Shown here piece after piece: positions 1 through 7,916 of a stretch of 37,282 nucleotides of DNA. The position numbers and the translations under genes are program-made. The stretch lies in assembly GCA_026387665.1 (NCBI GenBank), contig JAPLLG010000010.1, positions 1 through 37,282 on the forward strand, given 5' to 3'. The DNA is from Nitrospirota bacterium. Lineage in GTDB: Bacteria; Nitrospirota; Nitrospiria; Nitrospirales; Nitrospiraceae. Each line of letters starts with the position of its first letter. Position 1 is the stretch's first letter. The notes under the pieces were generated by a model, which was not told the DNA's origin, did no database searches, and was given only the letters and a program-made list of their open reading frames with translations.

Positions 1-1386
1 ATCACTCAAGGCGAGACCATCACGACGTTCGTCTATGACGGGGATGGGGGCCGAGTGAAGAAGATCGTCGGCAGCACCACGACGCGCTATATCAGCAAGC
101 TCTACGAGTGCGACAACACGAACTGCACGCGCTTTATCTGGACTGGGAGCACCCGCATTGCGACCATCGCCAGCAACGGTGCCGTTAACTACTGGCATGG
201 AGATCATCTGGGCTCCAGCAGTGTGATTACCGACGCAGCGGGTAACAAGGTGCAGACGATCACCTACTACCCCTACGGCGGGACCAACAGGAACGAGAGT
301 TCCAGCAACCCCGTCATTGATGTCCCCTACAAGTACACGGGCAAAGAACTCGATGTCAGCACCGGCCTCTATTACTACGAAGCCCGGTACTATGACCCGA
401 CGCTGGGCCGGTTCATCTCAGCGGATACCATCGTGCCGCATGCAAGCGATCCGCAAAGTTATAACCGGTACAGTTATGTGCGGAACAATCCACTGCTCTA
501 TATCGATCCGACCGGGCATAAATTCAAGTTCAGCAAGTTCCTCGGAAATCCCATCGTGCGCGGCGTTGGGTGGGCATTTGCGCCTGGCGCAATGGCATTT
601 CTCGACAAAACCACGCGTCCTTACGCCATTGCAACTGCTGCAGTGGTAGCCTCGATCTATACAGGAGGAGCTGCGGCGCCGGCGTTTGCCAGCTTGACCG
701 GTAGTGTATTCGCTGGAGCGGTGATTGGTGGCGCAGTCGGAGGAGCTGTCGGAGGCGTGGTCGGCTCTACTGGATCGGCATTGTCAGGCAATCACGTCAA
801 TTGGGGAACATCGATTCTTGCGGGAGCAGCTGGAGGAGCACTCGGAGGAGCAGTAGGATTGAGTCAGGATTCGTTTTTGACGTTAATGGGACGAGGTGTG
901 ACGGGAGGAGTGACCTCGGCCATTCGAGGAGGAAACTTTGGAATCGGCTTTGCCATTGGATTTGGAACAGCCACTGCCTTTGAGGCATACACTGCATTGA
1001 CGGGATTTGCAGGGGTTAACCCAGGTCCAGGAACGGGCAATGAAGTGAAAGGGGTAGGTGACCCTTCCGCCAAACAGTTTTTGGATAATGTCGGAGTTTC
1101 AAACCCTACAGAGCAAGCTCTCCAAGCGGCACAGCAAAGTTTTTGTTGCAACGAAGGCTCAACGTTGATGAGAGCCGCAGGGATGCTTCCATTTGTGAAC
1201 GCCATGGGGGGCGGACATGACTTTTTAACTGACTCAAGCCATCTCGGGATGAATGTTCTCACGAACATTCCCACAATGCTGCCCATGTATGGGTTGACGG
1301 TAGCGGCAGGAATTAACCAACTCACTGTTGATGGGCAAACGTTCTCGTTGACTGCCCCTTTGCTTACGCAGATAAGAGTCCGGTAA
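1..1386 (+). CDS. RHS/YD-repeat protein, 3' part only (5' end outside window)
   Basis: The frame is open from base 1, so the gene begins upstream; 461 residues are visible. The N-terminal part has YD-type repeats (FVYDGDGGRVKK) and then the conserved RHS core: LGSSSVITDAAGN, YKYTGKELD, GLYYYEARYYDPTLGRFIS, and the closing DPTG at 505-516. RHS proteins are large secreted or surface shells that usually carry a toxin or other variable domain after this core. The tail here is about 289 residues. It begins with alanine/glycine-rich hydrophobic stretches (about 660-785 and 814-860) resembling glycine-zipper membrane segments, and ends with a region containing GGGHDFLTDSSHLGMN. I recognise no catalytic toxin motif, so the tail's activity is unknown. 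A lipoprotein gene follows after 30 bp. The RHS core call is firm; the tail function is open. Confidence 0.9.
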   Translation: MTQGETITTFVYDGDGGRVKKIVGSTTTRYISKLYECDNTNCTRFIWTGSTRIATIASNGAVNYWHGDHLGSSSVITDAAGNKVQTITYYPYGGTNRNESSSNPVIDVPYKYTGKELDVSTGLYYYEARYYDPTLGRFISADTIVPHASDPQSYNRYSYVRNNPLLYIDPTGHKFKFSKFLGNPIVRGVGWAFAPGAMAFLDKTTRPYAIATAAVVASIYTGGAAAPAFASLTGSVFAGAVIGGAVGGAVGGVVGSTGSALSGNHVNWGTSILAGAAGGALGGAVGLSQDSFLTLMGRGVTGGVTSAIRGGNFGIGFAIGFGTATAFEAYTALTGFAGVNPGPGTGNEVKGVGDPSAKQFLDNVGVSNPTEQALQAAQQSFCCNEGSTLMRAAGMLPFVNAMGGGHDFLTDSSHLGMNVLTNIPTMLPMYGLTVAAGINQLTVDGQTFSLTAPLLTQIRVR

Positions 1387-1416
1387 GTTAATGAGGGCTG
1401 ATATGGAGAGAGCTGT

Positions 1417-2010
1417 TTGAGTATACTAAGTCTAGGTAAACATGTGGGGGTAGAATATATATCGTGGCTTGCGATAGTGAGCGGCTGTATATTTTTGTCA
1501 AGTTGCTACCCCTTGAGGGAGACATATTTTACGCCCACGGCTTCGACCGGGACAACTGTGCCGAACGAATGTCATCAACAATTGGGGCCTCGTGGAACAA
1601 TCAACATTCAACTGGACAATATCAATATGGCCGCCAGCATGCGTCCGGGGTCAGATGGTCTATCGCTAATCGTCTACGGGATCAGAGGAAATGAGCTATC
1701 GTTTGGAGGTGGGCAGTTTGTCGTTAGCTCGAAAAGCGGTGCTCAGGCAATCGCGCCTAAGAGAGTTATTGAAACTGAACACCATGCAGACAGATTGAAC
1801 AATACACGCGTTGTTCAATTTGAAGATGGTCTTAGGATGCTTTCCGGAAAAACCTACGATATTTTCTTCGACGGATTACCAACGAGGGATGATCAATTTA
1901 CTTTTTCTATGCCTTCCTTGGTAATGAAAAGCAGAGAGATTACGATTCCGACTATTACTTTTACCAAAATCACAGAGTGGCGCATTAATATGGTGGCTCT
2001 GAACTGTTAG
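1417..2010 (+). CDS. Predicted lipoprotein of unknown function, downstream of RHS gene
   Basis: A 197-residue protein that I do not recognise. The N-terminus has a hydrophobic segment ending in the lipobox LSSC (Cys30), the pattern of a type II signal peptide, so the mature protein is probably lipid-anchored in an envelope membrane. The chosen start is TTG at 1417, preceded by GGAGAG at 1405-1410; an in-frame GTG at 1444 would also keep the lipobox. The rest is polar and beta-rich in appearance without known motifs and ends in a cysteine. Base composition is more AT-rich than the rest of the window, which suggests recent acquisition along with the RHS tail. Its position right behind an RHS variable tail is where immunity genes usually lie, and some immunity proteins are lipoproteins; this role is an inference only. 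Confidence 0.7.
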   Translation: MSILSLGKHVGVEYISWLAIVSGCIFLSSCYPLRETYFTPTASTGTTVPNECHQQLGPRGTINIQLDNINMAASMRPGSDGLSLIVYGIRGNELSFGGGQFVVSSKSGAQAIAPKRVIETEHHADRLNNTRVVQFEDGLRMLSGKTYDIFFDGLPTRDDQFTFSMPSLVMKSREITIPTITFTKITEWRINMVALNC

Positions 2011-2431
2011 TGGAAGTAAATGGGCTGGGAGTCATTCCTGATCCCGCACGATGGCATGAGGCCGGGTCTCAGCTGGCGACTCGCGCGAAGATTCAAGTAT
2101 CTGATTTTGCGTTAATATACTCACCGCTCCCTTCATCTATATTCAGGGCTGTGTCGGTGGCTGAGCGCACGTTGCCGAAGGAGCGGGGTGCCCGCCGAAG
2201 CTTGGCCGAGAAGAAATTCTAGCGGAGGACTCAAAAAGTCCGTCTCTTTGTTCGTCGTTCGTGAAGCGTATCTGGTGGGGGAGAAGAGCGTCTGGCGAAT
2301 GGCTTATAGCTGATAGCAAAGACGCCCGCTCTCCATGTCTGACCATACGCTATTGGCTATATGCCATATGCTCTTTTCTTCCGACGCGATACGAACGGCG
2401 CAGGAATCTGGCGGACTTTTTCAGCAGCCTA
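2011..2431. other. Intergenic region between convergent genes
   Basis: This 421-bp stretch separates the lipoprotein gene and the HD-domain gene, which converge. Its right half (2226-2430) is a fold-back repeat described separately. The left half (2011-2225) has a short open frame of 70 codons from GTG at 2010, but it lacks a ribosome binding site and any recognisable protein features, so I do not call it a gene. I see no RNA gene here. Confidence 0.6.
2226..2430. repeat. 205-bp fold-back (inverted-repeat) element
   Basis: The ends are inverted: CAAAAAGTCCG near 2231 pairs with CGGACTTTTT near 2412. Inside, GTTCGT-N3-GCGT (about 2257) is matched in inverse by ACGC-N3-ACGAAC (about 2383). Further in, GAGAAGAGC...TGGC...ATAGC is matched by the complement of GCTAT...GCC...GCTCTTTTCTTCC. 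The whole element therefore reads as one long imperfect hairpin with its centre near 2325-2335. The innermost arms show 7-nt phasing (atggctt, atagctg, atagcaa). The right end lies one base after the stop codon of the HD-domain gene. The outer ends resemble those of the repeats at 11551 and 33151, so it may be a longer relative of that family. No coding potential is evident. Confidence 0.7.
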
Positions 2432-5423: not shown

Positions 5424-7916
5424 TTAGCGGGGCGTCGAGGCCCTGGTGGTTGCCTGTGCCGGCTGTGAGCGAGAGGCCCGCCCAATCTTTGCGCGGGCAG
5501 TCTGTTTCTTCTGTGGCAGTTGCGTCTTGTGGGGCTTGCCGGCTGGCCTGGGCTTCGGGCCCCGTCGGAGCGCCACCTTCATCACATCGTCCATCGTGTC
5601 CGCAAAGACGAGGTGAATACCCTTTAAGATGTGTTTGGGAATCTCGTCGAGGTCCTTCTTGTTCCGCTTCGGCAGGATCACGGTGGTGAGCTTGGCCCGT
5701 TTTGCCGCCAACAGTTTTTCCTTCAATCCCCCGATGGGGAGCACCCGGCCCCGGAGCGTGATCTCGCCGGTCATCGCCAAGTCGCGGCGCACCGGGATCT
5801 GTGACAGGGTCGAGGCAATGGCCGTGGCCATGGTAATGCCGGCGGAGGGTCCGTCCTTGGGAATGGCTCCGGCCGGCACATGGATATGGAGATCCTGTGT
5901 GGTGAAGACATCGGGATTGATGCCGAGGGTGCGTTCGCGCGACCGGACATAGCTCAAGGCGGCCTGCGCCGATTCCTTCATCACGTCGCCCAGCTGGCCT
6001 GTGAGGGTCAATTGTCCCTTGCCCTTCATGGCCGTGGCTTCGATATAGAGCACGTCGCCGCCTGACTCAGTCCAGGCCAACCCTGTGGCTACGCCGATTT
6101 CGTCTATCTGTAATTCCTCTTCCGGCACGAACTTGGGGACCCCGAGATATTTGTGCAGGTTGGCCGGATTGACGGGGAATCCGACGCCTTTGCCCTCCGC
6201 CACTTTTTTGGCGACTTTGCGCATGACATTGGCGATTTCTCGTTCGAGGTTCCGGACGCCGGCTTCACGCGTATAGTTGCTGATGATTTGGCGCACGGCC
6301 GGTTCGGTGATACGGACATGTTTCTCGGTGATGCCATGTTCGTTCAGTTGCCGGGGGACCAGGTATTTCTGGGCGATGCCCAACTTTTCTTCTTCGGTAT
6401 AGCCGGGGATGCTGATGACTTCCATCCGGTCGCGCAGGGCCGGCAGGATGGGGTCGATCAGGTTCGCCGTGGCAATGAAGAGCACGTCGGTCAGGTCGAA
6501 GGGCACGCCCAGGTAATGGTCCGTGAACGAGTTGTTCTGTTCCGGGTCGAGCACTTCGAGCAGGGCCGCGGAGGGGTCGCCGCGAAAATCCATGCCGACC
6601 TTGTCGACTTCGTCCAGCATGAAGACCGGATTGTTGGTGCCGGCTTGTTTCATGCCTTGAATGATGCGGCCTGGAAGCGCGCCGACATAGGTGCGGCGAT
6701 GGCCGCGGATTTCGGCTTCGTCGCGGACGCCGCCGAGACTAATGCGCACGAACTCGCGGCCGAGCGCGCGGGCGATCGATTTGCCGAGCGAAGTCTTGCC
6801 GACGCCGGGCGGTCCGACGAAGCAGAGGATCGGGCCCTTCATTTTGTCTTTGAGTTTCCGCACGGCCAGATATTCGAGGATGCGCTCCTTCACCTTCTCC
6901 AGATCGTAGTGGTCCTCGTTGAGGACTTTGGAGGCGGCCTTGAGGTCGAGGTTGTCCTTCGACCGTTTGGACCAGGGCAGTTCCACGATCCACTCGATGT
7001 AGGTCCGGACGGTCGCGGATTCAGCGGTGTCCGGGTGCATTTTCTCCAGGCGCTTGAGCTGCTTTTCCGTTTCTTTCAGTACTTTTTCCGGCATCTTCAA
7101 TTCGGCGATCCGCTTGCGGAACTCGGTGATTTCCTCCGCCCGCTCGTCGAGCTCGCCCAGTTCTTTTTGAATGGCTTTGAGTTGCTCGCGCAGGAAGTAT
7201 TCGCGCTGGGTCTTGTCCATCTCCCCTTTGGCCTGCGCTTGAATCTTCTGCTGCATGGAGAGGACTTCGATCTCTTTGCCGAGGATGTCGCTGACATGCC
7301 GGAGGCGCTTGATCGGGTCGATGATTTCCAGGACAGCCTGAGTGATCTCGACTTTGAGCCCGAGGTTGGAGGCCACCATATCGGCGAGCCGGCCAGGGTC
7401 TTCGAGGTTTTCGATGACGACCATCACGTCCGGGATCAGGACCTTCCCGAGGCTCACGAGCCGTTCGATCTGTTCCTTTACTGTCCGCATGGTGGCTTCG
7501 GTTTCGAGGGCGGCGCCGACCGGCTTCTGTTCGGGGAACTTGCTGATCCGCACGGAGTAGTAGGGCTCTGTCTGGATATAGCCCGTGATCTTGGCTTTCG
7601 AGATCCCCTGCACGAGCACCTTGATGCGTTCGTCCGGCAGTTTCAGCATCCGCATGATGATGCCGACCGTGCCGACGGTATGGATGTCGTCCGCCGTCGG
7701 ATTTTCGACGTCCAGGGCCTTTTGCGTGGCGAGAAATATCATGCGGTTGCCGGCTAAGGCGGCTTCAATCGCTTTGATCGACATGTCCCGCCCGACGAAC
7801 AGGGGGAGGACCATATAGGGGAAGACTACGATGTCCCGGACCGGCAACAGGGGAAGGTGGTCCGGGATTTCAGCGTTTTGCGGTGGCTGTAAGTCTTGTT
7901 CGATCGAGTCGTTCAT
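5424..7916 (-). CDS. lon: ATP-dependent protease La (Lon)
   Basis: An 830-residue LonA-type protease. The order is an N-terminal substrate-binding domain (about residues 20-215, opening [17 protein letters not shown]), a coiled-coil region (about 220-320), an AAA+ module with Walker A GPPGVGKT at 368-375 and Walker [11 protein letters not shown], then the S16 protease domain with catalytic Ser691 in KDGPSAGIT and Lys734 in GGLKEKL. It degrades misfolded and regulatory proteins in the cytoplasm. The C-terminus has an unusual basic extension of about 45 residues rich in Lys, Arg, Gln and Ala, beyond the end of typical Lon. It lies 48 bp after galU and is followed directly by thiL. I see no clear heat-shock promoter in the 48-bp gap, so it is probably read from the galU promoter. 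Confidence 0.98.

Follow-up and report, generated by a model that had tools for sequence, protein, structure and literature searches.

An RHS gene end with a candidate toxin tip and its probable lipoprotein immunity gene in a Nitrospirota genome

The window, by which we mean the whole stretch of DNA analysed (37,282 nucleotides, contig C10), comes from a Nitrospirota genome of 2.64 Mb in 14 contigs that is 99.8% complete; the named relatives among the matches are one Nitrospira record and one Nitrospiraceae record. It opens inside an RHS gene, whose frame is open from base 1, its 5' end cut by the contig start, and runs to a stop at 1384-1386. The RHS core precedes a variable tail and ends in DPTG at about 505-516; a lipoprotein gene follows 30 bp after the stop. 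The first-pass annotation had described this order of RHS tail and lipoprotein, and the core match and the position of the stop bear it out. Genes named below without a family search were recognised by eye from their translations. The features of the segment are as follows.

1-516, plus strand: 3' part of the RHS core with terminal DPTG (TIGR03696, RHS-associated core, E 2.1e-24, score 85.8 bits, cut-off 32.5; frame open from base 1)
511 or 517 to 1059, plus strand: pre-tip linker, glycine-rich and hydrophobic, with glycine zippers (zipper count against shuffles; phmmer)
1060-1386, plus strand: C-terminal tip of 108 aa plus stop, probable toxin domain (profile A2, alignment A6, relic at locus L006)
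1417-2010, plus strand: lipoprotein of 197 aa with a predicted beta-sandwich fold, probable immunity protein (lipobox, homologues, AlphaFold2 model, GC content)

The tail divides into two parts of unlike character. Its residues 1-183 are 23% glycine and contain 20 glycine-zipper motifs where shuffled sequences average 8.4 (p = 0.0005), whereas its last 108 residues (RHS residues 354-461), encoded by 1060-1383, contain none. When the linker was compared by phmmer with the 59 surveyed tails longer than 20 aa, five of the 58 other tails matched at E <= 0.01 (L004, 2e-11; G379, 9e-11; G060, 3e-6; G050, 0.001; G048, 0.002), and in three of these, L004, G060 and G050, the tip belongs to another family, family 2. 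In genome G257, the tip stands directly after the RHS core in a 98-aa tail that has no linker. Because the linker thus matches tails with unlike tips and the G257 tip occurs without it, we regard the linker as common property and the tip as the specific part. A reading in which the glycine zippers belong to the toxin was considered and rejected, as they sit in a linker found with other tips and are missing from the tip itself. The glycine-zipper stretches noted in the first-pass annotation are therefore real, but they belong to the linker. The tail may act on membranes, as that annotation proposed, but the zipper linker is common to other tips and missing in G257, and the tip is only moderately hydrophobic (best 19-residue mean hydropathy 1.11).

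The tip defines a small family, here family 1. Profile A2, built from the tips of the window and of G051, matches five of the 235 genomes of the order (the source genome, G051, G291, G379 and G257), the match in G257 being weak (E 2.9e-4 over 47 positions). A frame break interrupts the G051 tail, and the tip is read in the following frame. Alignment A6 of the four readable tips has four invariant residues, H53, D54, N69 and P71 in window-tip numbering, forming an HD pair and an N-x-P motif. Among the 32 genomes of the genus, the whole tail was found in the source genome only (its second RHS gene included); the tip alone was found in two of 395 genomes of the phylum, the source genome among them, and the intact tip and lipoprotein pair occurs in the source genome only among the genomes searched. 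Searches of the tail, tip and lipoproteins with Pfam and NCBIfam gave nothing above cut-off except the RHS core, with weak, non-significant rows besides, in keeping with the earlier view that neither protein belongs to a known family. The tip had no Pfam match at E <= 10, profiles A2, A6 and A5 matched no PDB sequence up to E 10, and no IMG/VR match to A2 was confirmed. The plasmid search gave no match for the tips of the window, G051, G379 and G257 or for the window lipoprotein. A single-sequence model of the tip reached a pLDDT of 40, which is meaningless, and so no fold can be brought in support of a toxin.

The lipoprotein gene begins at a TTG codon with GGAG 8 nt upstream, by our own reading, and its predicted lipobox, LSSC, places the Cys at residue 30 (pattern match). 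The gene has a GC content of 44.8% against a contig mean of 57.4% (sd 2.9; 734 windows of its size); just one of the 734 is as low, and it overlaps the gene itself, so that the lipoprotein described from the outset as AT-richer is indeed the lowest stretch of the window. AlphaFold2 predicts a beta-sandwich with a mean pLDDT of 74. The best Foldseek match had an E value of 4.4e-3, and the best VIA-align match a Z score of 8.0 (PDIP38, followed by ApaG and adaptin-ear chains), which the tool classed as a common arrangement. None of these convinced us as a specific fold relative, and the fold searches support the description "beta-sandwich" alone. Homologues occur in three of the 235 genomes of the order, the window lipoprotein itself included. 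When the 84,980 genomes of genome_contigs were scanned by pattern, two loci turned up, L005 at 59% identity and L006 at 48%, which we take to be the other two of these three genomes. The many RHS-free lipoproteins that could have spoken against a pair were not found: the family is confined to these three of 235 genomes, and one of the three yielded no RHS core.

On its 3' side the pair is followed by a gene that we take, from its translation, to be an HD-domain gene, present in 24 of the 32 genomes of the genus, the source genome included. None of the nine congener flanks fetched, of 23, contained a blastn match to window 1-2034 beside this gene, a search that a diverged RHS gene could escape; similarity in all nine stops near the end of the HD-domain gene, with short intergenic pieces in four. 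Pieces of an intergenic element at window 2035-2216 (74-96%) lie beside the same HD-domain gene in three of the nine congeners.

A second RHS gene of the source genome lies at the start of contig C3 (locus L004). C3 starts at the very point of a common RHS stretch at which the window contig, C10, also starts (window 1 and L004:1), so that both RHS genes are without their 5' ends in the assembly; upstream RHS sequence for the cut 5' end was not found elsewhere in it. The two cores share 90% identity over 479 bp, being identical over the first ~120 bp, and similarity falls off at about 480-510. Beyond this point L004 has a different tip, of family 2, and a different lipoprotein, which has no blastp match to that of the window. 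Genome G002, a congener, shares the flank of L004 (87% over 773 bp and 94% over 552 bp) and its core (82%) but has a third tail, followed by no lipoprotein under a PS51257-type rule and by a 70-aa frame, the only one found there. Tails have thus been exchanged on a conserved core both between the window and L004 and, at one locus, between L004 and G002.

At locus L006, from Nitrospira sp. Ga0074138 (taken as G291), tip and lipoprotein stand together without an RHS gene. The tip is a relic in two frames, with 54% identity over 55 aa and 68% over 47 aa, and is interrupted by an in-frame stop before its last residues; neither linker nor RHS core lies beside it. About 40 bp after the relic starts an intact lipoprotein frame, 48% identical to that of the window. 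The module occupies a different genus and a different chromosomal place, among genes that we take, by eye, to be flagellar. A single RHS core was found in G291, at a distance of 37 kb on that contig, and its tail is matched by neither profile. An inverted repeat of 89 nt, 75% complementary, flanks the module of tip relic and lipoprotein (L006:4534-4622 and 5744-5832). At locus L005 (taken as G458), the lipoprotein (59%) stands alone with no tail nearby, behind a gene that is presumably biotin-carboxylase-like; no RHS core was found in this genome, which is 77% complete. Both loci thus contain a homologue that has no intact toxin beside it, L005 being alone and L006 having a broken tip. Orphan immunity would be expected to leave this picture, in which the toxin is lost and the lipoprotein retained, and orphan immunity is documented in other systems, in the portions of the sources available (PMC12744356; PMC12247911).

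Lipoproteins recur behind related tips. In family 1, lipoprotein genes follow the tips of G051 (ITGC, by eye) and G257, and behind the G379 tip comes a protein that bears a signal but has a non-standard box, QGGC, which fails the rule. By blastp and phmmer, the partners of these three tips are related neither to one another nor to that of the window; since the tips are related and the partners are not, tip and partner do not simply co-evolve. Family 2, defined by profile A4, occurs in three of the 235 genomes of the order (the C3 locus of the source genome, G060 and G050), and here the lipoproteins behind the tips of L004, G060 and G050 are related to each other (26-52%). Against plasmids, the G060 tip gave C-terminal matches in two Enterobacter records (E 2e-5 and 2e-4); it had no match among phages. 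In one record, L077 (2149-3246), a 365-aa hypothetical protein with a family-2-like C-terminus comes before a lipobox protein of 118 aa, and in the other, L076 (1-3243), a hemagglutinin-repeat protein with such a C-terminus is followed by a 100-aa protein related to the 118-aa one, with no signal sequence as annotated. An HD pair is present in both tip families. We rejected the union of families 1 and 2 in one superfamily (hhalign probabilities of 17% and 4%).

The association was also counted across RHS tails, which were delimited by the positions of core matches. Of 61 cores above cut-off, 46 came from 61 genomes and 15 from four genomes added because of their tip or lipoprotein, of which G458 gave no core; 58 tails were scored for a PS51257-type lipoprotein start within -75 to +300 bp of the RHS stop. 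A lipoprotein follows five of six tips of the two families against 12 of the 52 remaining RHS tails (one-sided Fisher p = 0.0066), a comparison that is post hoc and small, the tip classes having been picked after the lipoproteins were seen and G379 and G257 having entered because they carry the tip. Random points meet the rule in 4% of cases. Under a first, earlier lipoprotein rule the counts were 4/6 and 10/54 (two-sided p = 0.023), with G051:C164, whose tip is in the next frame, classed as "other"; this tail is left out of the 58. The HD of G044, which comes from a loose pattern and is unsupported by the profiles, was counted as "other". Because 12 of the 52 other tails also precede lipoprotein genes, lipoproteins are not specific to these tips. 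Genome G379 (L086, L129-L135) has nine RHS cores with unlike tails, four of them followed by lipoprotein-type genes under the rule. Another recurrent RHS tail type, at L037, L047 and L051, has lipobox-like proteins downstream by eye, and the rule is met in L037 and L047.

How the RHS protein would leave the cell can be approached through the genus and through one relative. TssC (TIGR03355), the sole T6SS component sought, was found in 0/32 genomes of the genus, the source genome included, with a positive E. coli control; the candidate toxin is probably not delivered by a T6SS. The G379 carrier, a full-length relative of 2503 aa, has a signal-like N-terminus followed by SpvB, FG-GAP, TcdB_toxin_midN and RHS repeats. 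This single full-length relative, its signal sequence recognised by eye, suggests Sec export.

Among systems of known function, the Tse5 toxin invites comparison at the membrane, where its immunity protein, Tsi5, is a membrane protein and is not known as a lipoprotein. The likenesses and differences given here refer to those parts of each source that were available. Tse5 (RhsP1) of Pseudomonas aeruginosa is an Rhs pore-forming toxin delivered by a T6SS (PMC10684867), and the segment resembles it in joining an RHS carrier to a C-terminal fragment, which in Tse5 acts on membranes (PMC10684867). Two Asp residues, one within the terminal DPTG and another further upstream, are by our own reading likewise kept in the window core and may serve cleavage. 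In contrast to T6SS-delivered Tse5, the genus has TssC in 0/32 genomes, and the tip profiles match no PDB chain. Imm65, the immunity protein to Tox-JAB-1, is likewise a lipobox protein beside an RHS-type toxin (PMC3482391), but the window tip has no HxH and there is no match to a Pfam Imm family. The CDI ionophore toxins share a polymorphic tip behind a long carrier and a partner at the membrane; their CdiI proteins are very hydrophobic two-helix hairpins of 72-100 aa, unlike the 197-aa lipoprotein modelled as a beta-sandwich (PMC11630599). EsxX-ExiCD of Staphylococcus aureus likewise pairs a glycine-zipper toxin with immunity genes of the envelope, which are found as orphans too (PMC12744356), but there the zipper is in the toxin itself, secretion is by a T7SS and the immunity proteins are polytopic in the membrane, whereas the zippers of the window sit in the common linker. 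Immunity of the PA0261 type to VgrG2b C-ter is periplasm-exposed and, in Enterobacteriaceae, a predicted lipoprotein, although the VgrG2b C-ter toxin is a T6SS-delivered metallopeptidase (PMC6899460). The pore-former motifs given for Tox-WTIP in the available part of PMC3482391, RxxR and Wx[ST]IP, are absent from the tip, which has neither W nor RxxR, and the portion available of PMC12994826, on Salmonella T6SS effectors, showed no counterpart when read for lipid-targeting RHS tips. In literature on Rhs, Nitrospira toxins, CdiA-CT, Tse5, immunity lipoproteins and orphan immunity, taken by title or abstract opening, the pair was not found.

Based on these comparisons, we consider it likely that an RHS polymorphic-toxin gene with an envelope-acting tip ends in this segment and is followed there by its cognate lipoprotein immunity gene. 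The arrangement is of a known kind; both protein families are unnamed. The effector-immunity pair proposed in the first-pass annotation is supported in its layout, through the core-less tip and lipoprotein of L006 and the sister RHS gene with its other tip and other lipoprotein; its membrane action stays a proposal. We propose that the RHS core would serve as carrier of the C-terminal fragment, that the glycine-rich hydrophobic linker would lead to the ~108-aa tip, the putative toxin proper, and that this tip would be released in a neighbouring cell, presumably by cleavage. The released tip would most likely act in the envelope, probably at the membrane. There it would be bound and neutralised by the lipoprotein, which in the producer and its sister cells would be anchored in the envelope and face the periplasm. 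A lipoprotein partner would imply protection on the periplasmic side, and we therefore place the toxin in the envelope; it is mainly the lipoprotein nature of the partners that suggests this site. Toxicity, neutralisation, site of action and release by cleavage are what we infer from sequence. Tip and lipoprotein would form the exchanged unit, inserted behind RHS genes or landing elsewhere, where the toxin would decay and the lipoprotein would stay as orphan immunity.

The tip may be a pore or an HD-pair enzyme. That its invariant His-Asp acts on envelope lipid or peptidoglycan, with the lipoprotein covering the active site, is a reading compatible with the pair and one to which we would give somewhat less than an even chance. 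The HD pair is invariant in four otherwise divergent tips and recurs in the unlinked family 2, including the hemagglutinin-repeat and 365-aa proteins of Enterobacter plasmids, and the modest hydropathy of the tip also favours an enzyme. Few other polar residues are invariant, though, Pfam, NCBIfam and PDB sequences offer no match, and the Tox-PLA2 motif CxxHxxxYxN, as given in the available part of PMC3482391, is not matched by the window sequence GGGHDFLTD. A different role for the lipoprotein, in which it would help to anchor or export the RHS carrier in the manner of MafA and would not confer immunity, would suit two exported-type proteins in one unit and has a precedent in MafA, a lipobox protein upstream of MafB (PMC3482391, in part); we think it improbable, because the two RHS genes of the genome, which have the core and, more weakly, the linker in common, have unlike lipoproteins, and because the lipoprotein keeps with the tip in L006, which has no core beside it. 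Mere chance, by which an acquired lipoprotein gene came to lie behind an RHS relic, would fit the unlike composition of that gene, the incomplete RHS gene of the assembly and the lipoprotein genes behind 12 of 52 other RHS tails, but is very improbable given that both partners recur in this order at L006, in another genus and chromosomal place, and the lipoproteins behind related tips.

On the reading of a toxin tip with its cognate immunity gene, a wider picture can be drawn, tentatively and with the balance of probability against it in full: Nitrospirota would possess T6SS-independent, signal-peptide RHS weapons with HD envelope tips of ~110 aa, countered by a succession of unrelated lipoproteins, in which a mobile cassette of tip and lipoprotein, once within inverted repeats of ~89 nt (75% complementary), lands outside RHS genes and leaves orphan immunity behind. 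In their survey, Zhang et al. (2012) had Imm65 as the only apparent lipoprotein in their immunity collection, in the part of that source available (PMC3482391). With lipoprotein genes behind 17 of the 58 tails scored here, lipoprotein immunity behind RHS genes is suggested to be commoner than that early survey thought. The segment provides bounded, testable sequences for a candidate toxin tip and a lipoprotein family, both unnamed, in relatives of Nitrospira.
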